A stretch of 46,420 bases of DNA from Clostridia bacterium (GTDB lineage: Bacteria > Bacillota > Clostridia > Oscillospirales > Acutalibacteraceae), in assembly GCA_017465085.1 (NCBI GenBank), contig JAFTWW010000047.1, forward strand, positions 1 through 46,420, written 5' to 3'. The notes beneath the pieces are model-generated. The model saw nothing but the letters and a program-made list of their open reading frames with translations. It was not told the origin of the DNA and did no database searches. Within the stretch, counting starts at the first letter, position 1; each line of letters begins with the position of its first letter. The position numbers and the translations under genes are program-made. Of this stretch, positions 3,301 to 46,420 are shown one piece after another.

Positions 3301-5263
3301 TTCTGATAAAACAGGCGTTGATTTCGTAGCCGAAATGGCAACCCTTGATAGAACTGGTTTTGGTAATACTGAAGAATTTGAAACTGCTCTTGCAGTAGCT
3401 CTTGAGTGTTATCCCGAAGTTAGCGAGGCAATCGAAGCGGCTAACGCTTCTAAGGAGCTTAAAGAGGCTTGGAAGAGCCTTACCTACATTCCTCAGCAGA
3501 TAAACACCGCTCCCTTAAGAGGATATCAGACTGGTGGCTCCTCTGCATCCAAAACCATATTTGTTGATGGTGATGATGCAAGTAAGGGATACCTTGACCC
3601 TGATACTTCAACAGACGTTGGCACTGCATATAAGTTCCCCGTAGCCGATTATAAGGATTTGAATGGCGTTTCCACCCCATATGAGTGGTTCGTTTGGGGC
3701 AATGTTGGCTCTAATATCTTTATCAAGGATAAAATGTCATCCTTCGGTTTCTGGTATAAGTCTGAGGCTCAGATTACCAGTATACGTGTTATTGCTCAGG
3801 CAAGCACCTATCTTACTACTAATGGCGGTGTTCTGCCTGCAACTGGCGGTGAATGGAAATTCATTACTCTTGAAGAGCTTGCGGGTACAACTGTTTGGAA
3901 TAATTTCCTCGCTAATGCTAATTTAACCGATATTTCCGATTTCAGACTTATGTTTACCAACTCCACCGCAAGATCTACCGAGCTTTATTTTGGCGATTTG
4001 GTAGTTTATGGTAAGGATGAGCAGATTGATGGTATTGATACCTGGTCTGATATTGAGCTTGCAGAAAAATCCGCTAATATTGATTTCTCAGTATATGAGG
4101 AAAATGCAGATCTTGTAAACACCATCACAACCTGCTCTGAGATACTTAACGCTTACTATGCTAGTAACCTTTTAGCTCAGGATGTTATTGATAGCGCGGC
4201 TAACCTTAATAAGTATCTCTACTTAAAGCCCGTTACCACCATCACTAAGTATACTGATGATCCCGCTACCAGCGAGATTAAGACCAATCTTTACGGTGCT
4301 TCTGATAATGGTGACTACACCGCTAAAATCAATACAGTTGATTTTGGTAGTGAGTCCTGTTCACCTTACGGTGGCGCGGTTGTTTACGAAACCAATGCTC
4401 CTCTCACCTTAGCCGAGATCGATGATATTTATTTCTCATATAAGTTTGAAAATACCGTTATCGGTACTAAGCTTAATGAAAATAATGAACCGATATTAAC
4501 AAATAGCGGCGCTCGTATTTGGTTCTATAATGAGGACTTCTATAGAGAAGACTATAAGACCGATTCTGAAACAGGCGATTATGTTCTTGATGAGGAAAAC
4601 AATAAGATTGTTACCAAGACGTATGATGAGTGGCATTGCGGTATGGAAGCTTATGGAACTACCAGATGGTTACCCATTACAGGTGATACGGCAGGTTGGG
4701 AAGAAACCTCCCTTGCAACTATCTTCGGCGATGATTGGAAGACCGTATATTTAGAATATCTCAATGCGAACACTGTAGGCATAACCTATACCGAGGAAAA
4801 CACCACCATCTCCAAGATGGCTCTTGGCTTTAACGGCGCAGGCATCGATGGCGATTATGCCGATATAACCTTAGGTTCAATGTTTGTTGAGCGCGCAGGT
4901 GGCGATTTCACCATCACCGCAACCGCAGAGGAACCCGCTGAAGTATTGGATCAGGCTCTTAACCTTGACCTTACAGGCGTTAAGAAGTCAGTAGCTGATG
5001 AGTTCAAGACCTTAGTTAAGGAACTCGCTGATGCTACTAATACCGAAATCATTAGCGGCAAGTTCATTGCTGGTAACTATGGCGGCGCGGTTTCCCTCGT
5101 TGACTTAAGCTTACTTTCCCGTTATGTAGATGCCGTTGCGGCTGGTACCGAAGCTGATTTCCTTGCGAACAACTTCATAGCTCTTGACGGTGCAGATATT
5201 AACGAAGATGGCCTAATCAACGATGATGATGTAGTTGCCCTCCGCGTATATCTCTTGGGATAA
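332..5263 (+). CDS. secreted modular repeat protein with C-terminal dockerin-like module (1643 aa)
   Basis: Large extracellular protein of unrecognised family. The start follows an AAAGGAG ribosome binding site 8 nt upstream. Residues 1-30 form a signal peptide (basic start, hydrophobic core, cleavage near ISAEE). Residues 40-245 form a beta-rich module with FYYKS and GEWK motifs. Three copies of a ~240-residue module (about 304-565, 567-805, 807-1050) each end in a helical segment with FGNT..FE.AL. Residues 1054-1235 resemble the first module, and another beta-rich domain follows (about 1300-1540). The C terminus looks like a type I dockerin: the last 24 residues hold a canonical calcium loop (D1622, N1624, D1626, G1627, N1630, D1633). 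The preceding half (about 1580-1600) keeps the DLSLLSRY helix but has lost two loop aspartates. No catalytic domain is recognised. It could be a glycan-binding or scaffold-associated protein. Related modules occur in the proteins starting at 35926 and 45674. Confidence 0.8.
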   Translation: MKKQIFKLTSILLAMVMVFTMFSIMPISAEETTVDLATAVANLKTAWKNLSYKDYAETSSISYYNGAGGGFGGQEGYEYVGTDAPADSVDNYTFTVTSTPATIVYSNETASDANRSKMSNYKMTDIEGIYFYYKSEADLTLSEMYLYYNSGANTGSSRFWNTATYTLPSTNGEWKLFDFVDFLKSTDCTWEDLASTRAEAGYYYISRIALPVSAASDTAVSFGNVYFVADKNIANADSLADYEWYDKAVAVDPATLNAEYNDAEDSATWQAFVSAREAVLACSAEAAEARLRVAAEKMLTSETTYSKPIESGRKYIAYETSANDVDLYGDVYQNDYVLPAQTSLANIGNLTSSVWFSTLAPGTAGASTSSADSTNYFGDMGENPYITVKIESIDNLTAGQPAQLGFGMRLDCSSFGGSGTTNTYSKYYLDVEEGKEYKIYLNDVLTNIAMDNVEGGIQYQDIFDAWKTNSKASATSNKFFARIFILAALNAQITVDVGSIVDAPSYEITSTKTGAEFVAEMAALDISTFGNTAEFEAALTIALEEFPEAAALVAVEKLRTAATEMVTSQPSYAYPIMQGRTGVTMTATNDSYSEFGDYYYELTLPNYGKSINASIGTNSIWIQTQVVSGNDTLYFGDMGTDPYFTVEVSSTGTATQGTLGFFLRMCGTGAGDYTSGYTKTVVAGNTYKIYIKDILEATNGTAFADWETESKAGGSYYGGLFVMGAVDADITAKVGSVISKTYYTIPEDVAALTGENFVKAMASLDISTFGNTASFEAALEAALVQYPEVKKEFAVNQLRVAAAKMTTGINCSAPYPGGYYSSARVNFSDITYYTESDAEYAIFGSAKSPEHTLPVQSGRTLKGIWMTGAVGNASANAMYLYDYGVTNDTYFTVRVVSVANASASPALNFYTRHHKNSAQTDPSGVYTVSNVVAGGEYKIYIKDLLASNSIALSDLTSGTGNYIDFFAMQAGGCDITVEVGEAITTAFYEPSDKTGVDFVAEMATLDRTGFGNTEEFETALAVALECYPEVSEAIEAANASKELKEAWKSLTYIPQQINTAPLRGYQTGGSSASKTIFVDGDDASKGYLDPDTSTDVGTAYKFPVADYKDLNGVSTPYEWFVWGNVGSNIFIKDKMSSFGFWYKSEAQITSIRVIAQASTYLTTNGGVLPATGGEWKFITLEELAGTTVWNNFLANANLTDISDFRLMFTNSTARSTELYFGDLVVYGKDEQIDGIDTWSDIELAEKSANIDFSVYEENADLVNTITTCSEILNAYYASNLLAQDVIDSAANLNKYLYLKPVTTITKYTDDPATSEIKTNLYGASDNGDYTAKINTVDFGSESCSPYGGAVVYETNAPLTLAEIDDIYFSYKFENTVIGTKLNENNEPILTNSGARIWFYNEDFYREDYKTDSETGDYVLDEENNKIVTKTYDEWHCGMEAYGTTRWLPITGDTAGWEETSLATIFGDDWKTVYLEYLNANTVGITYTEENTTISKMALGFNGAGIDGDYADITLGSMFVERAGGDFTITATAEEPAEVLDQALNLDLTGVKKSVADEFKTLVKELADATNTEIISGKFIAGNYGGAVSLVDLSLLSRYVDAVAAGTEADFLANNFIALDGADINEDGLINDDDVVALRVYLLG

Positions 5264-32530: not shown

Positions 32531-33763
32531 ATGACTAAGGAAAAAGATATGGAGATACGCTGTTCCTTCTGCGGTAAAACTCAGGATGAGGTAACCCGCC
32601 TTGTAGAAGGCCCCGGCGTATATATCTGCGATAACTGTATAAATTTCTGTAGCTCCTTGCTTTATGATGATGAGCTTGAGGCAAAGCATAGCAAAAAGGC
32701 TAAGGAAAATAGGGAAGAAAAGGACCTCTTAAAGCCTGCCGAGATAAAGGCTAAATTGGATGAATATGTAATCGGTCAGGAGGAGGCTAAAAAAACTCTT
32801 TCTGTTGCGGTTTATAATCATTATAAAAGGGTTTATAAGCAAACCGAGCTTGATGTTGAGCTTAATAAGAGCAATGTTCTTATGCTGGGCCCAACAGGTG
32901 TTGGTAAAACCCTCTTAGCCCAAACTCTTGCCAAGGTTTTGGATGTGCCTATTGCTATAACCGATGCTACCACCCTAACTGAAGCAGGTTATGTGGGTGA
33001 GGATGTGGAGAATATCCTTCTCCGCCTTATCCAAGCCGCAGATTACGATATTGAAAGGGCTCAGCAGGGCATAATCTATGTGGATGAAATCGATAAAATT
33101 GCCCGCAAATCCGAGAACGCCTCCATCACCCGCGATGTAAGCGGCGAGGGTGTTCAGCAGGCCCTTCTAAAAATCCTTGAGGGTACAGTTTCCAATGTTC
33201 CCCCGCAGGGCGGAAGAAAGCATCCCCAGCAGGAATTTATCCAGATTGATACCACCAATATCCTATTCATCTGCGCAGGCGCGTTTGATGGTGTTGAAAA
33301 GGTTATTGAGCGTAGAATAGGCGGCAGTAGCTTAGGCTTTGGCGCCAATGTGAAATCGCATAAAAGCTTAGAGGCCGAATCTCTTAGCGAGACCGCTACC
33401 CATCAAGATTTGGTTAAGTTCGGTCTTATCCCCGAGCTTGTGGGAAGGCTCCCCGTTATAACCGCCCTTAAGCCTATGGATAGGGATACCCTTATAAGAA
33501 TTATGACCGAACCCAAAAACTCAATAGTAAAGCAGTATCAGGCGCTTTTTGCTATGGATAATGTGGAGCTTGTTTTCGAGGATGAGGCATTAAAGAAAAT
33601 TGCCGACCTTACCATCGAGAGAAAAACGGGAGCCCGAGGTCTTCGTTCTATTATCGAGGGCGTTTTGCAGGATATTATGTTTGAAACCCCCTCAAATGAG
33701 ACTACCAAGAGAGTTACAATAACCGCCGATACAGTTTCGGGCGGCAAACCTGTGGTAGAATAA
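32531..33763 (+). CDS. clpX: ATP-dependent Clp protease ATPase subunit
   Basis: 410-residue AAA+ unfoldase that feeds substrates to ClpP. The N-terminal zinc-binding domain has CSFCGK and CDNCINFC (four cysteines). Walker A is GPTGVGKT at about 120-127 and Walker B is [10 protein letters not shown]. The IGF-type ClpP-contact loop appears as LGF in [15 protein letters not shown]. The sensor and C-terminal segment [23 protein letters not shown] is intact. Last in the tig-clpP-clpX operon; a terminator follows. Confidence 0.97.
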
Positions 33764-33836: not shown

Positions 33837-33911
33837 AAAATAGTCAAAATAGTCCAATTAAAAGTCAAAATAGTCTAATGATTTTGAACTTTTTTTATGA
33901 TACCATATTAT
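33837..33911 (+). promoter_or_regulatory. promoter with direct-repeat activator-like site, first GH cassette
   Basis: Two copies of AGTCAAAATAGTCYAAT start at 33842 and 33863, 21 bp apart, so on the same face of the helix. They hold three or four AAAATAGTC-like half-sites. Immediately downstream are TTGAAC (33884-33889), a 16-bp spacer and TATTAT (33906-33911). Placement just upstream of -35 fits an activator, for example of the LytTR or OmpR type; the regulator is not identified. Confidence 0.55.
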
Positions 33912-33995: not shown

Positions 33996-35909
33996 ATGAG
34001 AAAACTTTTTTCAAAGCGACTGATTGCCGTAGTATTGGCAGTTGTTGTGTGCGTAAGCGCAGCAGGTGCATCTATGGCTGTTGACGGCTCAGTTGCTGCA
34101 ACTCGTACCATCACCGTTGATACAAATGATGTGGTAAACGAGTGTTACGCAGGCGTTGGTAATAACCATTGGTCAGCACCGTATGTTCAAGGTATGAACG
34201 ATGCTTACCAGACTGTGAACGAAAAGCGTCTTAATCTTCAAAAGTTTAGATACATGCGCATGCTTTTTGTTCCTAACTGGTTGGTAGATACGTCTCTTTC
34301 TCAGGAACAGCAGGAAGAGAATTGGAACAACGGTATTTACTACTATGATGGCATTGAGTTTAAAAACTTTATGTCTAAGGTAGCTATGTATGACCGTATT
34401 GGTACTACCGTTCTTTTGAACTTTGGTGGTGTTGTTACCGAAGACATATCCGGATGGTTCTTACATGAAAATGTATCGGAAAACGATGCAGGTAAGGGCG
34501 CTCCCAAAAACCTCGAAGCATTTGCTAAGGCGATTAAAGGCGTTATCGAATATTGCTGGAACGAGGGCTATGATAACGTTGAAATGCTTTCCTTCTATAA
34601 TGAGGTAAATGGCGGCTCCTACCGTATGTTCTTCGATGCTCGCGAGCATTGGGCAAAAATGATTGTTGCTGTTGATAAGGAACTTAGCCTGCATACATAT
34701 ACCGGCAACCCCAACAGCGTTCATTACAATAAGAATATACGTGATGAAATCAAAATGTTCGGTACCGAGCTTTCAGGCTTTGCTAATAATGATGCTGCGG
34801 GAATTCAGCAGTGGTGTGATACCGTTATAAGAGAGGCCGTTAATGAAAACGGAGAGCCTGCTTATGATTATCTTAATACCCACCACTATCCTATGACCAG
34901 TTCGTACGATAGCTATTTAGATGCTATTGATGCTACATCTGCTCGTTACCCTGGTGTTTGGGCTAATGAAACCTTAGGTAGATATGCTGTGGGAAACACC
35001 ACTCATTCAAATGAGCCTTATGCTTTGAACTATAAGTATAATGCACTGTCTATGGTAACAGCTCAGGCTAATGAGGGCTACGGCGGCTCTGCTTTATGGG
35101 TAGTAGGCTCCGATTCAACCCCCGCTCCTATGTCCATTCTGTTCTCAGGCGATTGGGATTTCCCATCCGGAGATATGCACGCAACTAAACATGTCTTTGC
35201 TTTAAATGGATTGCTTACTCGCTACATTCCTTTTGATAGCAAGGTTTATAAGAGTAATATTGATTCTGCCGATATGGTGGGCGCCGTGTTTGGCGTTGAG
35301 GATAATAACGGAAATATCGAGGATATGACCGTTATGCTTGATGTTGAGGAAAACAGCGCTCAGCGTGAGCTTACCGTAAAAGTAGGCTCCAAGATGGCAA
35401 ATCGCACATTTGAGCGTCATATCTATTATTTCCCCGAGAAAGATTCTGAAGGTTGGGAATGGCCAGAAACTCTTTATGAGAACGGCGCCGATATTCTTCC
35501 TGTTACCGATAAAGAAATAACCGCCGATGCAAATGGCAATATCGTTGATATTCTTCCCAATGATAAGCATATTGCAGTTGTTTATACAACCCTCGATGAG
35601 CAGGTTCAGATAGTAACCGATACCGATTATGTTGAACTCAGCTCCGGCGCTAAGAAGGACTTCAATGTAACCGCAATTTACGGTACTGATAACGATAGCA
35701 ATCTTTCAAATGTTACTTGGGAAGTTTTCGGAAAAGCTCGTACCGATACAAACGGCGGTTACAGCTGGACCACCGAAAACTGTGGTACCATTGATCAAGA
35801 TGGCAAATATGATGCCACAGGAACCACCGCAGGTGATACAGTTTCAATTAAAATCACCTCTAAGTATGACCCCTCTGCATATACAATCATTATTGCAGAG
35901 ATAGTTTAA
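33996..35909 (+). CDS. secreted clan GH-A-like glycoside hydrolase with C-terminal Ig-like domain
   Basis: 637-residue extracellular enzyme. The ATG at 33996 follows AGGAGG at 7 nt; an upstream in-frame ATG has no site. Signal peptide is residues 1-29 (KRLIAVVLAVVVCVSAAG). The main part (about 35-420) has TIM-barrel clan GH-A features. LSFYNEVNGG has N-E before strand 4 end, with E203 as likely acid/base. LNTHHYP matches the strand 6 His-Tyr. VWANETLG has E325 as likely nucleophile. A small beta region (about 430-540) and an Ig-like (BIG2-type) C-terminal domain follow, ending WTTENCGTIDQDGKY and YDPSAYTIII. I cannot assign a CAZy family; GH39, GH30 and GH51 share this logic. The gene at 43768 is a clear paralog. 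The 2525-aa protein follows by 16 bp. Confidence 0.75.
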   Translation: MRKLFSKRLIAVVLAVVVCVSAAGASMAVDGSVAATRTITVDTNDVVNECYAGVGNNHWSAPYVQGMNDAYQTVNEKRLNLQKFRYMRMLFVPNWLVDTSLSQEQQEENWNNGIYYYDGIEFKNFMSKVAMYDRIGTTVLLNFGGVVTEDISGWFLHENVSENDAGKGAPKNLEAFAKAIKGVIEYCWNEGYDNVEMLSFYNEVNGGSYRMFFDAREHWAKMIVAVDKELSLHTYTGNPNSVHYNKNIRDEIKMFGTELSGFANNDAAGIQQWCDTVIREAVNENGEPAYDYLNTHHYPMTSSYDSYLDAIDATSARYPGVWANETLGRYAVGNTTHSNEPYALNYKYNALSMVTAQANEGYGGSALWVVGSDSTPAPMSILFSGDWDFPSGDMHATKHVFALNGLLTRYIPFDSKVYKSNIDSADMVGAVFGVEDNNGNIEDMTVMLDVEENSAQRELTVKVGSKMANRTFERHIYYFPEKDSEGWEWPETLYENGADILPVTDKEITADANGNIVDILPNDKHIAVVYTTLDEQVQIVTDTDYVELSSGAKKDFNVTAIYGTDNDSNLSNVTWEVFGKARTDTNGGYSWTTENCGTIDQDGKYDATGTTAGDTVSIKITSKYDPSAYTIIIAEIV

Positions 35910-35925
35910 TTGGGAAAGGAGAAAT

Positions 35926-38900
35926 ATGAATATGAAAAATATTAAAAGTTTTATAGCAAAAAATGTATCTGTATTTCTTTCCCTTGCTATAATTTTAACC
36001 ACCCTTCTTCCCGTATTTTCGGGTGTTGCAAAGGCGGCTACTTATGATTCCGCTAAAATCACCGAGCTTAAAGAGGCTTGGGGAGCCCTTACTGTTAAGG
36101 AAACCTTAGTTCCTACAGAAGTTTGGGCAGGTTCAAATGTTGTAGGTACAGGTTTAACCTTATCTGACACTTCGTCTTATTCCGGTCCCGCTATATCGGA
36201 TACTTCTAAGCTTGGCCCTAAGTATGCAACATATACCACTACGGGAGTGGCTACAGGCTGCGCTGATAATAAGGATATGTATGTATTCAGAATGATGGAC
36301 AACGATGCAAACTATACCATAGGTCAGTTTGTATCTTATTCGTATGAATTCAATTCTACCGCTGAGACATTATCCAGAGTTTTTATGCATTATTTTAATA
36401 CCGGTGTTCAAGCTGAGAGAACGTTGTATGCCGGTACCTTCCTTCATAACCCTATGGCTGCTGGTTGGTCTACCATTTCCTATAACGGTGTTAATGCGAG
36501 AGGAGAATATGCCTCTAATTTAAGCGATAAGTTCTTAGGTCTTGGTTTTGACCTTAACGGAGCCGCCGCTGATATCACCGTTGGTTCTATGACGGGCGTA
36601 TTCAAAGCCGCAAGCGATGAAACCTTAGCCCTTGCAGATAGCGATGCTGATGCTTTTGTTACTGCTGCTGTTGCATATTATGAAGCGGCTGTTACAGGTA
36701 ATAAATTTGAGATTACTGATGCCGCATTCTTAAGATTTAAGGCAGCTATTGATGCTATTTTGAATGATAATTCCAATGAATCGGAAATGTCGGTAGCCAT
36801 TAAGAATCTTAAAAATGCTTGGAAAGCATTAACTCATATCGGCTATGATGATACAGTTGCTATGAACTATATCGGTAGCAACGGCACAGGTTCCAACTAT
36901 GCCGTTAACGATACCTCTAAGCTTGGTCCTAAGTATGCAACCTATACTACTTCGGGAACAAATAGTGGCGCGGCCGATAATAAGGATATGTATGTATTCA
37001 GGATGATGGATGGTGATGTAAACTATACCATAGGTCAGTTTGTATCATATTCTTATGAATTCCATTCCACCGCAGCAATGGCATCCAGAGTTTATATGCA
37101 TTATTTCAATACTAATGCTCAAGGCGAGAGAACGTTGTATGCTGGTTCCTTCCTTCATAGCCCTATGGCAGAGGGCTGGTCTACCATTTCCTATAACGGT
37201 GTTAATGCGAGAAGCGAATATGCCTCTAATCTGAACGATGAGTTCTTAGGTATTGGTTTTGACCTTAACGGAGCCGCAGGAACCATCACCGTTGGTTCTA
37301 TGACGGGCGTATTCAAAGCCGCAAGCGCTGAAACCTTAGCGCTTGCAGATAGCGATGCCACCGCATTCATTGCCGCGGCAACAGAATATTATAATGCAGC
37401 CGTTGCCGCTAATAAGTTTGATTCCGCTGATGCCGCATTCATAGCATTTGCAAATGCGGTTAACGCAGCAGATGCAAGCAATGTTGCTGACTTAAAGGCC
37501 GCTTGGGCTGCTTTGACAGTAAATGAAACCTTGATTCCCTCTGTTCTTTGGAATGGCGCCAACACAGTAGGTACAGGTTTAACCCTTAAAGATACCTCCC
37601 AGTATGATGGTCCTTTCCTTGGCGAATGTCCTCCCCAAGCGCCTGAAGCTTCTGAAATTCGCAAGATGACCATTAATACAACAAGCATTCCTGCTTATTT
37701 CACCGAGGTTTCTAATTTTGCTACTGAGGCAACAACTACCGTACCCTTTAAGCAGATAACGGATATGTATTTCTATTATAAATCCGATGCGGATATCAAA
37801 GCGCTTTTTGGATGCATTGGTAATAACGGTTCAGCCCGCCATAACCGTATGTTTGGCGCAGGTTCCACTTGGACACTTCCCAACACTAATGGTCAGTGGG
37901 TTAAACTTTCCTTCTTTGATTGGTTTACTTCAAACGGATTTTCATTTGATGCAATAGTTAAAAACGCAGGTGAAACTGCCGCTTCAACCCAATTAGCAAT
38001 AATTGGCTTCCAGTCACTTTATACAGCATCCGGAACCACCGATTTATATGTAAGTGAATTATTCGTAGATAACGGTGTTGATGAAAACCTTGCAGGTTCA
38101 GAAAATTGGACAGATGTTGAGTGGATGACCAATGCCATCAACGCCAACCCAGATGAACTTAAAAATGATTATGTTGATGGCGTAAACAATACTGAAAAAT
38201 GGGCTAGCTTTGTTGCAGCTCGCGAGGCGCTCTATGCTTTCGCTGATGAATTAGCCATTATTGTAGCAACCAATAATTTCAAGACCGCTTGGCAAGCATT
38301 AACACCTTCAGAAACTGCAGGTGATAAAGTTGATGCAACCTTATTAAACCATGCTGCAATAGGCGCAGGTAATTTGTCAAACGATGTGCCCGCTGATGTT
38401 GGTGCAAATGCTAATAGCGTAGTAATGCCTATTGGTACAAAAGCGACTCAAATGCTTCAATTTGGCGATGAGGTTGCGAATAATCTTGTAACACCCGCCA
38501 GCAGAACAGATATTGATGATATCTATTTCTACTATAAATCAACCTCTGATGTATATTTGAGAGTTTCGATATCCTACTCTGATGGTTCATCAGCTACCCT
38601 AAAGGGTGCTGCGGCTCCCTTTAGCGGTTTGTTTAAGGCAGCATCCTCAAACGGTCAGTGGGTAAAGGTTTCAATACCCGATTTCATAAACGGTGCCGCA
38701 GCAGGTGCATGGGCAAACAGATATAAACCTGCCGATTTGGCTTACGCATATTACAGCAAGGTTCGTGTAGAGTTTGCAACAACCAATGCGATTGATGCAA
38801 ACAATGGCACCGAAAATGTAGCAGATGTTTATGTTTCAAATCTGTTCTTTAAGTATGACACAAACCTTTACGGTTCAGAAGATTGGACCGATGAGCAGTG

Positions 38901-41900
38901 GTGTGAAAAGGCCATCACATTAAATGTTGATGATATTAAAAATGATTATGTAGATGGCGTAAACAACACTGAAAAATGGACCGCATTTGTTGAGGCTCGC
39001 AATACCCTTGTTGATTGCTTGCCCGACCAAAATGTTGTAGCGCTTAAAGAAATCTGGGGCTCATTAAAGATAAAAGCAACCATGATTCCTTCTGAGATTT
39101 GGGCAGGCTTCAATACTCTTGCAACAGGATTTACCGTTAACGATTCTGCAAATTATAACGGTCCTGCAATTCCTGATGCTTCTAAGCTTGGTCCTAATTA
39201 CACAACCTTTACCACCACAGGTACAGGCGGCGCGGCTGATAATGTGGATATGATAGTATTCAAGCCTAGTATCAGCGGTCTTAAGTTATCACAATTTGAG
39301 TCGTATAGCTTTGAGTATCATACTACCGCAGCAAACGCTTCCAGAGTTTATATGTGCATAGTAAATAGCTCAGGCAGCTTGGGAACAATATATGCTCCCA
39401 GCTATCTCCATAACCCTATGCCTCAGGGATGGTCAACCGTTTCCTATGAAGGTGTAAATGAAAGAAGCGAATACGCTAACGATTTAGACCGTGAAGTTTT
39501 AGGCATCGGTTTTGACCTCACGGCAGTTCCTGCTGATATCACCGTTGGTTCTATGACAGCAATATTTACTGCCGCCAACGAGAGCGATTTAGCTCTTGCT
39601 GATACTGATGAGGAAGCATTCGTAGAAGCTGCTAAACGCTTCTATGTAAAAGCGCTTGCTAATAACTATTTTGCAAGTGATGATGCTGCATTTGCCTCCT
39701 TTACAGAGGTTTTAGGCAATCTTACCGATTTGTCCGTAAACGATGTTGTTTCAAGTGAAGTAGCAGTAGCTTGGGATGCTTTAAACATCGAAAAGACACT
39801 TATTCCTTATGAGGTTTGGGAAAAAGATGGTGTTGTTGGTACAGGACTTAATGTTTATGATTCTTCCGCTTATAGCGGCTCCGACCTTGCTGATAAGAGC
39901 GTTTTAGGTCCTAAGTATGCAACCTTCTCTGCTACCAAATCAAGCAGTGCTTCCGATAATGTGGATTATATCGTGTATAAATTTGCAGATGGTAATGAGG
40001 CTTTAACCGTTGGTCAGCTTGATACGATTTCATTGTATGTTAATTCTTCTGCTGCAATCGGTGGCATCAGACCCAAGATGCATATTAACGGCGGAATCGC
40101 TGTTGATAACCCCACTTTCTTCACAGCGGCCCAAATCGGCTCAGGTTCTTGGAAAAATGTATCCCTTAGCGGTCTATCATCCAAGGAAGGTTATCAATCT
40201 GTTAAGCAGAGAATTATGACGGGCGTGGGACTTGATATTGCGGGTAATGCCGATATCCAAGTAGGCTCTATAACCGCAACCTTCAAAACACTTTCTGCTG
40301 AAAACAAAGCCCTTTCTGCCACCAATTCTCTCGAATTTTTAGCAGAGGCAATTAAGTTTAATAAAACAGCCGATAGCATTTTCGGCGAAAATAATGCTAA
40401 ACTTATCAACTTCAGAGAAAAACTTAATGCCGCATTAACCCTCATAACCGAGGAAGATAAGGCAATAGTTGAGCTTATCGCAGGTTGGAAGAGTCTTAGC
40501 AGCACCGATTCATATCCCGATAGCGATACTACCGAATGGAATCTTGCTGACTGGGTATATGCCGCTCAGAAGGTTGATACAGCTAACCTTACCAATACCG
40601 AAGAATTTGTTGAAGCTTTAGTTAATGCTATTAATTTAAGAGATGAACTCGGTATCGTACTTAGCTGTGATATCACAAGCTTTACCGATGCAGCATCTGC
40701 CCAGGGAACAATTGATTCCCTCGGTGAAAATGTATTGGTAGGCAAGGTACCCTCTGTTTATTACTTTGATGGTACCGAAAAAACCGAAATCTCTGTAGCA
40801 AATGCCGAGAATCTTACTGATGGTAACTTTGATACAGTTGAAGCGTTTGCAAACTATGATTTCTCAGCCCCCAATTCGTATGCAGAATTAGTTTATGAAT
40901 TCAATGGCGAAGCAGTTATTGATGACTTTATAGTAGGTTTCAATAATAATGCTGACCATGCAAATATGAACTATAAGATTTATGCCGCAAATAATATGGC
41001 AGACCTCTTCTTAGATAAATCCCTTGTTGCAGCGTATAATAATGAACTTGGCGAACAGGTTCAGAGATTTAGCTATGGTGGCAAGATTCAGATTACCGGT
41101 GCGTATATTGCATTCAGATTCTATGGCAACGAATCCGGTCTTACCATTAGCGAGCTGGGCGCTTACGGCGAGGTTGTAACATATTCTGTTAAGACCAACG
41201 CTTTAAGTGACGCTGAAATGAAGGCGCTCGGCACTAACCTCTTTGCCAATGCCCAGTGTTACATTAGAGGAGGTACAGGCGGTAGAGTTAAGTGGGAAGA
41301 GCATCAGCAAGGTAGCTTGTATCCTTATACAAAGTTAGTTGACCTTTCTAACGAAACTGGTTGCGGCTTTGCTGCAGTTACAGGAAGCGCTATCAGTAAA
41401 GTAGACCAAGATATAACGATGCACCTTGTATTTGATCTCAAGGATACCTACTATGTAGAAAAGATTCTATTTAACCACTTCCGTCAGAACTATCTGCAAA
41501 CAGGTAAATATGAAATCTATGCTTCTACCGAGATGGGTCTCCTCTTCAAAGATAGCAGTAAGATTATTACTTATAATAATATGTCGGATGGTCCTAACGG
41601 AACCACCAATTCTCAGCTCTTTACAATGGCTGGTAACGGTATAATCGCAAGATATATCAGTATCTGCGTTAAATGTCCCGTTTCTGATTATGAAAATGCG
41701 CTTGCGACATTCTCGGGTATGTGCTATCCCAGAATTAACGACCTCGCTGCATTTGGTACTAAGTATGTTAAGCCGAAGGCAGAAATCAACTTTGTTAACC
41801 ATGTTCCCGTTGAGGTTTACCGTACCGATTCTGCTGGTAACAAGACCACCGTTAAGGAAGATGAGTATAGCGGTGATGATTATCTTTATGCTTATGACGG

Positions 41901-43503
41901 TAAATATGATGTTGCAACACCTATCGCCCAAAACGATAAATATGTTGATTTTGTATTTAACCTCTGCGCTAATAAGACTATCAACTCCGTTAAGCTTTCC
42001 ACCCTTACCGAAAATATTAAGGGACTTAAGGTTTACGCCTCCGATTCAGCAGAGGGTGTCTGGAATAATGACAGTATGGTTGTTGAATATTACGGCGAAG
42101 CCGTTAACGAAGTGTTCCGTACATTTGGTGAAACACCAATAGAAGCCCGTTATGTAAGATTCTGCATAACCGAAACCGCTTCGGGCACATTTGATCCCAC
42201 CGAGTTTGAGGTTATAGGTTGGAATACTCAGGAGTTTGCATACTATAACCTTGCTGAAAGCAAGCAGGATGACGCTTCTATGATTCTTGTTGATAAGGAT
42301 ACGGGCGAATATACCATGTCCACTCAGAATTTCGGTAGATACTATCCTCATTGGTGGGGCCAGCCTTGGTATGAATTCTACAATATGTTTGATGGCGATG
42401 AAGATACCGTTGCCGATTTCTATACTGGTTCTATGGGTAATCCCGATGGTACCGGCAAGAAGACAATCAACTTCCTTGTTGACCTCGGCACCTTGAATGC
42501 TGTTGATAATATCGAACTCATCGCAGGAAGCAATAAGGAATTCTGGCCTAATAAGGTTAACTTCTACTTAGGCGATGACGACCTCGCTCTATTTGATGCC
42601 GATTTAGAGCCCGATGCTTCATTCAATGAGAAATCTAATGAGGATAGCGGAAGCTATGAATATAACTTCTTGCCTAAAGTAGTTCAGTATGTAAGAGTTG
42701 AGATTGTAGATGCAACCAACGATCTGTTCAATACTGATAACAAGATGGCAACCATTATTGCCGATATTAAGGTTAACGGTCTTGAAATCCTTGCAAGCAC
42801 CGCTTCTGAAGGCGTAGCCGCATCTGTAACCGATGAGGAAACGGGCATCCGTGTTGACCTTGTAGCCCTTCGTGAAAACGATGTTTACACAACGCTTCAG
42901 GATATTCTTGTTGTTAAGCGCGAGGCTACCGCCGAGGAAAAGGCGGCAACCTTAGCAAACAACAATAAGTTTGCCTCTGATGTATATCAGATATTCCTTC
43001 TTGACGTTAACGGAGATTTAATTGAAGACGTTGATGGAAGAGATATCAAGATATATCTGCCCAAATCTCTCTATAAGGGTACCTCCGAGGAAGCCTTTGT
43101 AATGTCAAACGAACTCGGTGAATTCAGCATTATTGATTTCACCACCGAGGATGATTACTTTGTTGTTGTTTCCTCCGATCCTTTAGTTAACAACTACGCC
43201 TTCTGCGAATTTGTAAGCGTAGATGTAGAAGAGGATGAGGATGATAATGATACCCCAACTGATACGGATAACACCGTAGAGGAGGATGAAACCGAAACCG
43301 AGGATGAAGAACCCGAGGAAGAGGAAGAAGAAACCTCAAAGAAGAAGAGAAAGGTTAAGGTTGTTCGCAAGGGCAACGGTACCGATATCTTCGATTACCT
43401 CTGGATAATCATCGTTGTTGTAGCTGTGGTAATAGTAGCCGCAGGTATAACCCTCTTCATAATCCTTGCTAAGAAAAAGAAAAAGCAGGAAGAAGAGGCC
43501 TAA
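35926..43503 (+). CDS. giant modular surface protein, membrane-anchored (2525 aa)
   Basis: Cell-surface protein; family not recognised. The start follows GAAAGGAG; a second ATG two codons on is possible. Signal peptide is about 1-37. Then six ~230-255-residue modules: type A at about 44-279, 289-515 and 1035-1267, a variant at 1275-1506, and type B at about 522-778 and 778-1033. Each module starts with an LK..W..L helix; A modules end ITVGSM plus a helical tail, and B modules carry an FYYKS motif and end near NNTEKW. A helical linker (about 1506-1580) precedes four discoidin (F5/8 type C)-like domains at about 1580-1749, 1755-1947, 1948-2100 and 2101-2289. After a further domain come an acidic linker rich in Glu and Asp (about 2436-2468), a basic patch, one transmembrane helix (about 2493-2514) and a KKKKK tail. 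It is likely a glycan-binding partner of the upstream glycosidase. Confidence 0.8.
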   Translation: MNMKNIKSFIAKNVSVFLSLAIILTTLLPVFSGVAKAATYDSAKITELKEAWGALTVKETLVPTEVWAGSNVVGTGLTLSDTSSYSGPAISDTSKLGPKYATYTTTGVATGCADNKDMYVFRMMDNDANYTIGQFVSYSYEFNSTAETLSRVFMHYFNTGVQAERTLYAGTFLHNPMAAGWSTISYNGVNARGEYASNLSDKFLGLGFDLNGAAADITVGSMTGVFKAASDETLALADSDADAFVTAAVAYYEAAVTGNKFEITDAAFLRFKAAIDAILNDNSNESEMSVAIKNLKNAWKALTHIGYDDTVAMNYIGSNGTGSNYAVNDTSKLGPKYATYTTSGTNSGAADNKDMYVFRMMDGDVNYTIGQFVSYSYEFHSTAAMASRVYMHYFNTNAQGERTLYAGSFLHSPMAEGWSTISYNGVNARSEYASNLNDEFLGIGFDLNGAAGTITVGSMTGVFKAASAETLALADSDATAFIAAATEYYNAAVAANKFDSADAAFIAFANAVNAADASNVADLKAAWAALTVNETLIPSVLWNGANTVGTGLTLKDTSQYDGPFLGECPPQAPEASEIRKMTINTTSIPAYFTEVSNFATEATTTVPFKQITDMYFYYKSDADIKALFGCIGNNGSARHNRMFGAGSTWTLPNTNGQWVKLSFFDWFTSNGFSFDAIVKNAGETAASTQLAIIGFQSLYTASGTTDLYVSELFVDNGVDENLAGSENWTDVEWMTNAINANPDELKNDYVDGVNNTEKWASFVAAREALYAFADELAIIVATNNFKTAWQALTPSETAGDKVDATLLNHAAIGAGNLSNDVPADVGANANSVVMPIGTKATQMLQFGDEVANNLVTPASRTDIDDIYFYYKSTSDVYLRVSISYSDGSSATLKGAAAPFSGLFKAASSNGQWVKVSIPDFINGAAAGAWANRYKPADLAYAYYSKVRVEFATTNAIDANNGTENVADVYVSNLFFKYDTNLYGSEDWTDEQWCEKAITLNVDDIKNDYVDGVNNTEKWTAFVEARNTLVDCLPDQNVVALKEIWGSLKIKATMIPSEIWAGFNTLATGFTVNDSANYNGPAIPDASKLGPNYTTFTTTGTGGAADNVDMIVFKPSISGLKLSQFESYSFEYHTTAANASRVYMCIVNSSGSLGTIYAPSYLHNPMPQGWSTVSYEGVNERSEYANDLDREVLGIGFDLTAVPADITVGSMTAIFTAANESDLALADTDEEAFVEAAKRFYVKALANNYFASDDAAFASFTEVLGNLTDLSVNDVVSSEVAVAWDALNIEKTLIPYEVWEKDGVVGTGLNVYDSSAYSGSDLADKSVLGPKYATFSATKSSSASDNVDYIVYKFADGNEALTVGQLDTISLYVNSSAAIGGIRPKMHINGGIAVDNPTFFTAAQIGSGSWKNVSLSGLSSKEGYQSVKQRIMTGVGLDIAGNADIQVGSITATFKTLSAENKALSATNSLEFLAEAIKFNKTADSIFGENNAKLINFREKLNAALTLITEEDKAIVELIAGWKSLSSTDSYPDSDTTEWNLADWVYAAQKVDTANLTNTEEFVEALVNAINLRDELGIVLSCDITSFTDAASAQGTIDSLGENVLVGKVPSVYYFDGTEKTEISVANAENLTDGNFDTVEAFANYDFSAPNSYAELVYEFNGEAVIDDFIVGFNNNADHANMNYKIYAANNMADLFLDKSLVAAYNNELGEQVQRFSYGGKIQITGAYIAFRFYGNESGLTISELGAYGEVVTYSVKTNALSDAEMKALGTNLFANAQCYIRGGTGGRVKWEEHQQGSLYPYTKLVDLSNETGCGFAAVTGSAISKVDQDITMHLVFDLKDTYYVEKILFNHFRQNYLQTGKYEIYASTEMGLLFKDSSKIITYNNMSDGPNGTTNSQLFTMAGNGIIARYISICVKCPVSDYENALATFSGMCYPRINDLAAFGTKYVKPKAEINFVNHVPVEVYRTDSAGNKTTVKEDEYSGDDYLYAYDGKYDVATPIAQNDKYVDFVFNLCANKTINSVKLSTLTENIKGLKVYASDSAEGVWNNDSMVVEYYGEAVNEVFRTFGETPIEARYVRFCITETASGTFDPTEFEVIGWNTQEFAYYNLAESKQDDASMILVDKDTGEYTMSTQNFGRYYPHWWGQPWYEFYNMFDGDEDTVADFYTGSMGNPDGTGKKTINFLVDLGTLNAVDNIELIAGSNKEFWPNKVNFYLGDDDLALFDADLEPDASFNEKSNEDSGSYEYNFLPKVVQYVRVEIVDATNDLFNTDNKMATIIADIKVNGLEILASTASEGVAASVTDEETGIRVDLVALRENDVYTTLQDILVVKREATAEEKAATLANNNKFASDVYQIFLLDVNGDLIEDVDGRDIKIYLPKSLYKGTSEEAFVMSNELGEFSIIDFTTEDDYFVVVSSDPLVNNYAFCEFVSVDVEEDEDDNDTPTDTDNTVEEDETETEDEEPEEEEEETSKKKRKVKVVRKGNGTDIFDYLWIIIVVVAVVIVAAGITLFIILAKKKKKQEEEA
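36055..37476 (+). repeat. recent intragenic tandem duplication (A modules 1 and 2)
   Basis: Two ~700-bp modules repeat with a period of 711 bp (237 codons). At the nucleotide level TTGGTTCTATGACGGGCGTA and the bases after it recur at 36581 and 37292 almost unchanged. More diverged copies of the module lie at about 39030-39725 and 39750-40440. Confidence 0.8.
37490..39025 (+). repeat. intragenic tandem duplication (B modules 3 and 4)
   Basis: Two B-type modules repeat with a period near 777-780 bp. Their ends match closely, as in AATGATTATGT(T/A)GATGGCG near 38164 and 38941. The region shares motifs (FYYKS, NGQWVK, GS.(N/D)WTD) with the first and fifth domains of the protein at 332-5263. Confidence 0.7.
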
Positions 43504-43511
43504 AATAGCTT

Positions 43512-43592
43512 GAAATAAGTTTCCTTTCAACTTATTTCTCTTTCAGACCGAGCCTATCCCCCGTGGAAACACGGGGGATAGGTGTTTTTTTA
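43512..43592 (+). terminator. tandem hairpins and terminator after the giant protein
   Basis: First hairpin: GAAATAAGT/ACTTATTTC (43512-43538), perfect. Second: CCTATCCCCCGTG/CACGGGGGATAGG with a GAAA loop (43553-43582), followed by TGTTTTTTT. The second is a very strong intrinsic terminator separating the two cassettes. Confidence 0.9.
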
Positions 43593-43593
43593 T

Positions 43594-43695
43594 GCAATAT
43601 ATGGTAATGTAATATGTATTACAGGCCAAATCGCAATATATGGCTAAAAAGACCGCAATATTTGACTTGATAGTGAAATAAATGTGATATATAAT
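43594..43695 (+). promoter_or_regulatory. promoter with GCAATATATGG repeats, second GH cassette
   Basis: Three direct repeats GCAATATATGG, GCAATATATGG and GCAATATTTGA start at 43594, 43633 and 43655. A perfect palindrome GTAATAtgTATTAC lies at 43609-43622. Directly downstream are TTGATA (43667-43672), a 17-bp spacer and TATAAT (43690-43695). The last two repeats are 22 bp apart, again near two helical turns, but the repeat differs from that of the first cassette. Confidence 0.6.
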
Positions 43696-43767
43696 TAAAA
43701 CAGCAGGAAAGAAACCGAATGTTTCTTAAAAAGCTTGCCTAAAATAATTTATGCAGGAGGAAGCACG

Positions 43768-45654
43768 ATGAAAAAATTATTCACCAAGCGGCTATTAGCA
43801 GGCATTATGTCGCTGATACTGTGTATCTGTGTAGCAGGAGTAGCTGCGGCGGTTGAGCCCAGAGCCACCGCCACAAGAACTATCACTGTGGATACAAACA
43901 CGGTAGTAGGCGAGGATTACGCCGGGGTAGGTAATAACCATTGGACATCGCTTTATGTTTCGGGTATGAATGATGCATATCAGACTATGAACGAAAAGCG
44001 TACCAATGTGATTAAACCTGCTTATATGCGCATGCTTTTTATGCCTGATTGGCTTGTAGATACCTCACTCTCCTCAGCCGAACAGCAGTGGGAGTGGGAA
44101 AACGGTATTTACCATTTTGAAAATCTAGAGGTTGTTAACTTCTTCCAAAAGGTAAAAATGTATAAGGAATCGGGAACGGATGTCATCATCAATATGGGTG
44201 CCCGTGTTGATTATGATATTATGGATTGGTTTCCCGTAAAGGATGCGGCCCACTCCGAAGGCGGTACCCGTGGAGCCCCTGCTAATCTCGAAGCCTTTGC
44301 AAAGGCTACCTATGCATTATTTGAATATGCTTGGGATGAGGGCTATGATAATGTAAATATGCTCTCATGGTATAACGAGGTTAACGGCGGTAACTATGAG
44401 ATGTATTGGGATAAGCCAATGTATTGGTGCACCATGATTAAGAAAACTCATGATGAGTTTAAGTCCCATACATATAAGGGCGTTAATGCGCGTGATAAAA
44501 TCAAGATTTTCGGCACCGAGCTTTCGGGACTTATAGATGAGGAAAGTATACCCATCTGGATGGAATATATCACCGAAAATCTTGTGGATGAAAACGGTGA
44601 GCCTGTTTACGATTATTATAGCTGTCACCACTATCCGTGGCAGAAGTCATATGAGTCAATATATGAAGCTATTGAGGAAATGGGAAATACCTATTCAGGT
44701 GTTTGGACCAATGAGATAGGCGCAAGAACTGCAGACGGTAAGCAAACCACCCACAGCGGTAGCGAAACCTTCGTTTCTAACTATAAGTATTCCGAAGCCG
44801 CTATGGTTATATTGCAGTCAAATGCAGGCTACGGCGGAGCGGCATGCTGGGTTGTTGGCCCCGATGTAGCGCCCGCTCCTATGGGTGTTAACTTCGATAT
44901 CGGTCTTATGGGAATGTGGTCCTATCCTTTCAGGGATATGAGCACCTCTCATAACTACGGCTTCCGTAGCCTTATGATGCGATATATTCCTAAACATTCA
45001 AAGGTATATAAAAATACCGTAGCCTCCGAGGATATTCTCTGCGCGGTTTACGGTATTGAGGATAATAACCAAAATATTGAGGATATGACCGTTCTTTTAG
45101 ATGTTGAGGCAAATTCCTCTCAGCGTGAGCTTACTGTTAATCTTGGCAGTAAAATGGCAAACCGCGTTTTAGAGCGCCATGTATATTATTACCCGAAAGC
45201 CGATAAGGAAGGCTGGGAATGGGCGGATGTAACCTACCCCGATGGTGATCTTATGCCCGTAACCGATAAGGTGCTCACCGCCGATCAAAACGGAAATATA
45301 ACCGATATACTTCCCGTAGATGCTCATTGCATGATAGTATACACCACTCTTGATGAGCAGGTACAGATATGTACCAATAAGAGCATTGTTAAAGTTAGCA
45401 GTAACGGTACCTACGATTTCGATGTAACCGAGGTTTACGGAGCCGATGATAAGTCGGTCACCTGGTCGGTTTACGGAAAGAGCCGCAGCGATACAAACGG
45501 AGGCTATAACTGGACCACCGAAAACTGCGGAACCATAGACCAGAACGGTAATTATAGCGCTCAGGGCACTTCCGCAGGCGATACCGTTTCTATTAAGATT
45601 ACATCCAACTATGATCCAACAGCTTATACCGTAATCATAGTTGATATCGTTTAA
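43768..45654 (+). CDS. secreted clan GH-A-like glycoside hydrolase, paralog of the 33996 gene
   Basis: 628-residue extracellular enzyme. The ATG at 43768 follows AGGAGG; a longer reading exists but has no site. Signal peptide is residues 1-28. The sequence aligns along its whole length with the 33996 product. Shared landmarks are TRTITVDTN, GVGNNHW, YMRMLF, WLVDTSLS, LSWYNEVNGG (E204, acid/base), CHHYPWQ, VWTNEIGAR (E316, nucleophile), WVVG and GIEDNNQNIEDMTVLLDVE. The C-terminal Ig-like domain has WTTENCGTIDQNGNYSA. Differences lie in the loops after strand 3 and around strand 8, so specificity may differ. The large modular partner follows by 19 bp. CAZy family not assigned. Confidence 0.75.
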   Translation: MKKLFTKRLLAGIMSLILCICVAGVAAAVEPRATATRTITVDTNTVVGEDYAGVGNNHWTSLYVSGMNDAYQTMNEKRTNVIKPAYMRMLFMPDWLVDTSLSSAEQQWEWENGIYHFENLEVVNFFQKVKMYKESGTDVIINMGARVDYDIMDWFPVKDAAHSEGGTRGAPANLEAFAKATYALFEYAWDEGYDNVNMLSWYNEVNGGNYEMYWDKPMYWCTMIKKTHDEFKSHTYKGVNARDKIKIFGTELSGLIDEESIPIWMEYITENLVDENGEPVYDYYSCHHYPWQKSYESIYEAIEEMGNTYSGVWTNEIGARTADGKQTTHSGSETFVSNYKYSEAAMVILQSNAGYGGAACWVVGPDVAPAPMGVNFDIGLMGMWSYPFRDMSTSHNYGFRSLMMRYIPKHSKVYKNTVASEDILCAVYGIEDNNQNIEDMTVLLDVEANSSQRELTVNLGSKMANRVLERHVYYYPKADKEGWEWADVTYPDGDLMPVTDKVLTADQNGNITDILPVDAHCMIVYTTLDEQVQICTNKSIVKVSSNGTYDFDVTEVYGADDKSVTWSVYGKSRSDTNGGYNWTTENCGTIDQNGNYSAQGTSAGDTVSIKITSNYDPTAYTVIIVDIV

Positions 45655-45673
45655 TGAGGAAAGGAGAACTGAT

Positions 45674-46420
45674 ATGAAAAAATTTATAAATAAGCATTTA
45701 GCAGTAATTCTTTCTTTAGCTATTGTGCTTTGCACAGTGCTACCCGTATTCAGTGTTTTTGTTAAGGCTGATGGCGTATATGATGCGGCCGTAATAACAG
45801 AGCTTAAGGAGGCTTGGTCGGCTCTTACCATTAAAAAGACCCTGCTATCCTCAGGCCTTTATGATGGCACACCCCTTACCATTAACGAAACTTCTTCTTA
45901 TCAAGGTACCGACCTTACGGATAAAACCGTTTTAGGCGATAAGTATATAACACATACTTTAGCAGGCGGCGATGCGGCAGATACTGTTGACCGCATAACC
46001 TTTACTTTCCCCACAGAAAACACAACGCTTAAAATAGGGGATATTAAGGATTTTACCGTATATGTAAAATCAACGGGCGCTAATGCTATCCGTCCCTTCT
46101 TCTGTGTTTCAACGGGAAGCAGATGCAATAACTCTTCCATCTTTAATCTCACCGCAAATTCTTGGATGGAACTAAAGATGAGCAATCTTCCTCAGCTTAG
46201 CACACTTTTAACTGCTAACGGCGCACTTGGCGGAATAAAGGATAGGGTTGTTACAGGCGTTGATTTCGACTTTAACAATACAGGCGATATCACCGTAGGC
46301 TCTATGGTGATGGAGTTTTATACCGTAACCGATGAAACCCTAGCCCTTGCAACCAGCGATGTTATTGCCTTTGTTGAAGCGGCGAACGATTTTAATGAGA
46401 TAGCGGTAACAAACGGTTAC
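45674..46420 (+). CDS. modular surface protein, N-terminal part (runs off the window)
   Basis: At least 249 residues, open at the right edge. The ATG follows AAAGGAG at 7 nt. Signal peptide is about 1-33 (NKHLAVILSLAIVLCTVLPVFSVF is the hydrophobic part). Residues 40-249 form one A-type module that begins ITELKEAWSALTIKKTLL and contains ITVGSMVMEFYT and LALATSDVIAF. It is most like the variant module at about 1275-1506 of the 2525-aa protein. It is therefore the paralogous partner of the second glycosidase. Length and anchor type are unknown. Confidence 0.8.
   Translation, partial: MKKFINKHLAVILSLAIVLCTVLPVFSVFVKADGVYDAAVITELKEAWSALTIKKTLLSSGLYDGTPLTINETSSYQGTDLTDKTVLGDKYITHTLAGGDAADTVDRITFTFPTENTTLKIGDIKDFTVYVKSTGANAIRPFFCVSTGSRCNNSSIFNLTANSWMELKMSNLPQLSTLLTANGALGGIKDRVVTGVDFDFNNTGDITVGSMVMEFYTVTDETLALATSDVIAFVEAANDFNEIAVTNGY

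Follow-up and report, generated by a model that had tools for sequence, protein, structure and literature searches.

The Gram-positive polysaccharide utilisation locus (gpPUL) is defined as a glycoside hydrolase (GH) gene accompanied by a transport system and a regulator (PMC5320581). The same source reports that no SusC/SusD homologs were found in Roseburia (PMC5320581). Surface glycan capture is less well known in Gram-positive gut bacteria than in Bacteroidetes. The locus described here belongs to a small bacterium related to rumen Clostridia and pairs a predicted secreted glycosidase of GH-A type (protein A) with a giant modular surface protein (protein B). The A-B unit resembles a gpPUL in its secreted GH and in the AraC-type regulators near some copies, but it is a two-gene unit, repeated about ten times, with neither a transport system nor a regulator inside. 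Since the two-gene unit lacks a transporter, with flanks that are only partly annotated, it was not classed as a gpPUL in that sense; no transporter is seen inside any cassette. No description of the A-B pair was found in the open-licence literature, including the accessible parts of PMC5320581 and PMC6385246. The scale of the amplification is unusual and the parts belong to known kinds. An operon of an enzyme and an anchored giant that is repeated in one species and has a non-homologous echo in its relatives offers a testable model of specialisation.

Organisation of the locus

The window, meaning the whole stretch of DNA analysed (46,420 nt), is the entire contig C37 of a genome of 1,664,190 bases in 52 contigs that is 96% complete. 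A sequence-only reading of the window had described a two-gene cassette present twice in tandem with 16-19 bp between the genes, and the ORFs, their order and their common + strand are confirmed (Table 1). B1 begins 16 bp after A1 and B2 19 bp after A2, with an AAAGGAG ribosome-binding sequence before each B gene. The two enzymes align end to end at 57% identity, also as described. The repeat preceding A1 is the only exact 13-bp direct repeat at a spacing of 18-25 in the 46.4-kb window. Promoter-like hexamer sites number 34 in the region against 33.1 in shuffles.

Table 1. Features of the A-B cassettes and their flanks in the window
Feature	Position	Strand	Basis
Operator-like 13-bp direct repeat AGTCAAAATAGTC, 21-bp spacing, upstream of A1	33842..33875	+	repeat scan; function inferred
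Promoter-like hexamers TTGAAC-16-TATTAT (9/12) before A1	33884..33911	+	consensus match only
A1, predicted secreted GH-A-like glycosidase, 637 aa	33996..35909	+	ORF, alignment, profiles
A1 parts: signal peptide; presumed barrel, ~37-380; beta-sandwich, ~400-535; Ig-like tail, ~540-637			limits by alignment
A1 predicted catalytic residues: acid/base E203, nucleophile E325			alignment
B1, giant modular surface protein, 2525 aa	35926..43503	+	ORF, Pfam, profile comparison
B1 type-A modules 1 and 2	36049..37485	+	
B1 type-B modules 1 and 2	37486..39024	+	
B1 type-A modules 3 and 4	39025..40491	+	
B1 four discoidin-like (F5/8 type C) domains	40723..42789	+	limits approximate, set by analyst
Discoidin-like subranges (fourth less certain)	~40723-41193, 41194-41757, 41758-42222, 42223-42789		
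B1 acidic linker, basic stretch, transmembrane helix and lysine tail	43247..43496	+	
Intrinsic terminator after B1	43552..43583	+	computed and by eye
Operator-like imperfect direct repeat CGCAATATATGGCT / CGCAATATTTGACT, 22-bp spacing, before A2	43632..43667	+	function inferred
Promoter-like hexamers TTGATA-17-TATAAT (11/12) before A2	43667..43695	+	consensus match only
A2, second glycosidase, 628 aa, 57% identical to A1	43768..45654	+	
B2, start of second giant; gene interrupted by contig end at 46420	45674..46420	+	

The glycosidase

Seven residues (R88, N202, E203, H296, Y298, E325 and W368) are invariant in all ten A copies found in the genome. The order is that of clan GH-A, with an Asn-Glu acid/base motif and a later Glu nucleophile, both Glu being aligned with the homologs; the Arg, His/Tyr and Trp stand at the places where they usually have roles in this clan. 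The catalytic glutamates of GH-A type that had been proposed from the window are upheld by this invariance, by a profile match to GH30 structures and by a PF11790 match above cut-off in a homolog from genome G935 described below.

The A proteins of the window have no significant match in Pfam, NCBIfam or the PDB. Assignment to GH30 was rejected because the scanned copies fall below the family cut-offs: GH30 gave no match at E≤1 in the eight A copies scanned, none of the Pfam GH30 models attains its cut-off in proteins with scores shown, and L040, a member of a distant parent family, has GH30_2 at 18.5 bits against a cut-off of 27. PF11790 (Glyco_hydro_cc), which we take to be linked to GH128, was likewise rejected, with no match at E≤1 in the eight copies scanned. 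A profile built from 12 of the 20 G935-type homologs together with A1 and A2 does match GH30 structures, best 2wnw (E 1.2e-4), in an alignment that matches the acid/base motif and does not cleanly align the nucleophile. PF11790 appears at E≤0.1 in nine of the 14 profile members and a weak GH30C in five of them. The similarity to GH30-like enzymes of clan GH-A thus consists of a weak but significant profile match and weak GH30 sandwich matches. From these comparisons we conclude that A is a GH-A-type glycosidase without a family assignment, with a predicted barrel fold for which the support comes from profiles. It would represent a GH-A-type enzyme family that goes unrecognised in this genome by the Pfam and NCBIfam sets searched.

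A1 and A2 had also been said to differ in their active-site loops. Small indels do follow presumed beta5, beta7 and beta8, but the largest indel lies elsewhere, between presumed alpha4 and beta5 on the face opposite the active site, as placed by eye on the alignment. Three further A copies carry an extra C-terminal stretch (C48:10841-12964 at locus L033; C28:26590-28746 and 34910-37111 at locus L031). Flg_new is reported in three of eight A members, which the alignment indicates to be these same three, and their B partners are nearest each other.

The giant surface protein

The first giant has six repeat modules of ~240 aa, the number originally counted; type A accounts for four and type B for two. 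None has a Pfam match above cut-off, and the type-A and type-B module profiles found nothing in the PDB (best E 0.74 and 0.16, respectively). The modules are mostly unclassified and may bind glycans. The module region of the second B copy on C48 contains Big_14 (34.1 bits against 27), an Ig-like domain that need not bind sugar.

The only Pfam matches above cut-off in B1 are discoidin (F5/8 type C) domains, with PF00754 found in three stretches (50.5 bits against 28.2). By profile comparison D1, D2 and D3 are linked at 95-98% probability, and D4 is linked to D3 at 89%, to D2 at 35% and to D1 at 0.5%. Of the four discoidin-like domains claimed for B1 three therefore stand, and the weak links of D4 to D2 and D1 make the fourth less certain. 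PF00754 also occurs in four of the five further B proteins that were scanned; the remaining one matches only PF22633.

The membrane anchor noted in B1 is plain in its sequence and is common to all nine aligned B tails. Against the PDB, the B-tail profile gave one doubtful match (E 0.091). Within the genus, the profile of the B C-terminus has matches in 33 of 70 genomes, its own among them; outside that genome the matches listed span at most ~200 of the 997 positions, mostly the anchor, so that this anchor type is common in the genus and a full B is not seen elsewhere in it. The first B copy on C48 (locus L033, C48:4833-10406) has a dockerin at its end in place of the membrane helix. Four dockerin matches above cut-off occur in the genome (96% complete), where cohesin PF00963 was not found. 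A role for B as a cellulosome component was rejected, as one B ends in a dockerin and there is no cohesin in the genome. At positions 332-5263 (+) of the window, a 1643-aa ORF weakly resembles a dockerin at its C-terminus (PF00404 below cut-off, E 0.052).

Copies of the pair in the genome

Ten A copies were counted in this 1.66-Mb genome. The earlier reading spoke of a duplicated pair and proposed a survey of co-occurrence; co-duplication is supported, and two copies understated its extent. All eight A copies whose 3' end is visible are followed by a B gene at 10-19 bp (two junctions each on C37, C28 and C48 and one each on C22 and C7), and with ten A copies in the genome this arrangement is not due to chance. 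The A copies on C50 and C18 are interrupted inside A by contig ends. On C7 only the beginning of B is present, and B tails on C5, C16 and C47 are interrupted at their 5' ends with no A partner visible. Nine B tails were found by the anchor profile, to which the dockerin-ended C48 copy is added; ten A and ten B fit ten pairs, three of them unproven. The visible coding sequence of all copies comes to ~73 kb by our sum, or 4.4% of the genome.

The last 90 bp of C37 (46331-46420) are identical to the end of C22, so B2 probably continues in C22. This overlap suggests that the window is part of a triple tandem array, A-B-A-B-A-B, completed by C22, though an assembly-graph branch at a repeat could also produce it.

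The aligned A copies are 34-57% identical to A1, and DNA matches among copies, mostly 64-84% identical, are likely saturated. Across seven pairs, one of which relies on the C37-C22 overlap and one of which has the only partly comparable dockerin-ended B, A distances correlate with B distances (Mantel r 0.64; 17 of 5040 permutations as high). The A-B pair is co-duplicated and its members have diverged together. The four B-to-A spacers of the tandem arrays measure 264 (C37), 404 (C22), 301 (C28) and 434 bp (C48). Those following B1 and B2 (the latter on C22) have near-identical beginnings, and each holds a terminator hairpin; between the two, both arms of the stem have changed and still pair (by eye). 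Upstream of A7 there is a repeat at 22-25 bp, and in the remaining upstream stretches the repeat scan found weaker repeats or none. The tail of B1 shows 95.3% identity over 256 aligned bases to that of the final B on C22, yet protein identity across the aligned C-terminal part is 43%. This disparity suggests that the anchor was exchanged between them by gene conversion.

Distribution and homologs

Among 70 genomes of the genus, the A profile matched seven including its own. The six other matches are weak: five belong to the distant parent family (19.6-26.2 bits), and the sixth (G001, L043) was dismissed as a chance match in an ORF that by eye resembles a transporter gene. The A family proper thus occurs in one of the 70 genomes, its own. 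A profile of the ten A copies matches that of five parent-family members at 99.1% probability (E 1.9e-18, 436 columns) with both glutamates aligned. Larger sets, which are overlapping samples with at most three candidates scored per genome and may miss rare relatives, gave two matches each: this genome and, weakly, G065 among 394 genomes of the order; this genome and G065 among 391 of the class; and this genome and G935 (E 1.4e-61) among 398 of the phylum. A scan of a collection of genome contigs with A, perhaps not covering its own genome, gave 25 pattern matches and no relatives; viral contigs searched with the A1 alignment gave 71 pattern matches, none confirmed; and plasmids searched with the first A protein of the window gave no relative. 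A mobile or viral origin of A was rejected on the lack of relatives in viral contigs and plasmids. For the G935 protein itself, plasmids yielded a single distant relative (E 4e-15), 22.7% identical and covering 34% of the query.

Among the homologs found, those closest to A are single proteins of larger size from a different Bacillota family, possibly Paenibacillaceae, where 34 of 394 genomes were matched, mostly once per genome with at most three candidates scored. With a profile that includes G935, 30 of the 34 are strong (E 3e-50 or better) and four weak (20-36 bits), and the strong unbroken matches lie in open frames of 779-1771 aa. Aligned with the ten copies over 480-619 columns, the G935 protein shows 24-29% identity, and it resembles A in its catalytic positions and in an Ig-like region after the sandwich. 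Unlike A, these homologs are larger multi-domain single polypeptides, their domains and neighbours being taken from G935 alone. That protein has PF11790 above cut-off and CHB_HEX_C_1, with CBM60 and DUF5013 below threshold, and its gene adjoins GH2, GH106 and apiosidase-like genes. A giant partner is absent from its neighbourhood, the one neighbourhood examined. The sequence-only reading had held that homologs usually found without the modular partner would count against it; the larger single proteins, and G935 with no giant in that one neighbourhood, do count against it in part. The absence of A from the rest of the genus and its homologs in a distant family suggest that A may have been gained horizontally and later amplified.

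The parent-family profile matches 14 of the 70 genus genomes, its own among them weakly. Larger regions of five other genomes with this family were examined, and three (G019, G063 and G069) have a giant-GH pair. In each, the giant (1738-2006 aa) has a membrane helix at its C-terminus, and only 2-15 bp separate its gene from a downstream parent-family GH gene whose product has an N-terminus resembling that of a lipoprotein. The giants of G019 and G069 contain CBM4/9, and that of G063 has no Pfam match at E≤0.01. These pairs are like A-B in the anchored giant beside a GH at such short spacing but differ in reversed gene order, a lipoprotein-like GH and modules that are not homologous to B beyond the anchor. 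The theme of an anchored giant beside a GH thus recurs in three other species, which may be close kin. In G065 a 1222-aa protein that lacks an anchor is encoded between two parent-family GHs, and the two short contigs of G085 show no giant-GH pair.

Proposed function and alternatives

On balance, and with modest confidence, the A-B pairs are read as duplicated units for surface glycan capture and cleavage, a proposal built on the observed pairing, co-duplication, conserved catalytic residues and anchor. Each pair would form one transcription unit for surface glycan foraging. A, with a Sec-like signal and no anchor seen, would be secreted to cut a complex glycan, presumably as a retaining enzyme given its GH-A type. 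B would be exported and stay in the membrane by its C-terminal helix, where its discoidin-like domains and modules may hold the glycan, and perhaps A, near the cell. The ancestral unit would have been copied whole about ten times; the enzyme, the set of modules and the upstream sequence would then have diverged among the copies, each of which may respond to a different glycan. The substrate can be guessed to be a pectin-type or fucosylated glycan by analogy with the genes near relatives: GH106, GH2 and apiosidase-like genes near G935, and GH36-like, pectate-lyase-like and fucose isomerase genes near the parent family. The enzyme-receptor pair of the earlier reading is supported in its enzyme type and its co-duplication, and B may be a receptor. 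The recurrence of anchored giants beside GH genes in G019, G063 and G069 also favours a foraging unit. Points against it are the B1 modules without database matches, the Big_14 match in the second C48 copy, the cassettes without a transporter, the larger single-protein homologs of A with no giant beside G935, the B that ends in a dockerin, and the B tails on C5, C16 and C47 with no visible A. A bolder version, which we regard as doubtful, is that of a split surface glycanase. The enzyme that elsewhere sits in a multi-domain polypeptide would here be a free enzyme with an anchored scaffold, each enzyme bound to a partner of its own, and amplification of about tenfold with separate operators and anchor gene conversion would have produced a private array of glycan-specific units.

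It is unlikely, yet worth weighing, that the B proteins are instead a variable family of adhesins or surface-coat proteins, which duplication and gene conversion have diversified for surface variation or for adhesion to fibre, epithelium or cells, with A trimming glycans to expose ligands or release the cell. The large divergent repeat part above a conserved anchor would fit, as would the gene-conversion-like contrast between the tails and proteins of B1 and the last C22 B and the confinement of the A family proper to one of 70 genus genomes. Against it stand the catalytic residues kept in every A copy and the parallel GH-giant pairing beside polysaccharide-type genes; moreover, every copy that no contig end interrupts is a complete gene, and in the stretches read by eye neither silent cassettes nor inversion sites were noticed. 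The pairing might also be a passive by-product, an enzyme gene and an unrelated giant having been chance neighbours that were duplicated as a block and do not work together. The observed distance correlation would follow from co-duplication alone, and G935, the one outside homolog whose neighbourhood was examined, has no partner. This explanation is nevertheless very improbable, since all eight junctions keep the 10-19 bp spacing even though A copies are 34-57% identical to A1, and similar pairing with non-homologous modules is seen in three other species. Least probable of all is remodelling of the cell's own capsule or wall polymer, which A would cut and B would bind: the C50 copy of A lies near ORFs that we take to resemble CpsB, CpsC and CpsD, capsule-regulation genes, but this is one locus only, and others lie beside clpX, AraC-type regulators or a GH38 gene.

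Genomic neighbourhoods

AraC-type regulators are encoded near the copies on C18 and C47, and an ORF near C22, which also has a GH38 gene, resembles one by eye. In the window, clpX (32531-33763, Pfam) directly precedes the cassettes. Upstream of the C28 cassettes, ORFs at locus L031 (C28:20634-23627) presumably correspond to lon and engB. The genes clpX, lon and engB are often neighbours, so a rearrangement near the cassettes is possible.

The scanned members of the parent GH-A family at the loci L053, L052 and L122 reach no Pfam cut-off. The parent-family gene of L053 lies beside GH36-like, pectate-lyase-like and DUF6259 genes, and L053 and L122 are apparently on the same contig, apparently G065:C23, which matches that of L053 in length. 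At L120 (G069:C7:64694-66499), an L-fucose isomerase gene is located between two parent-family GH genes.
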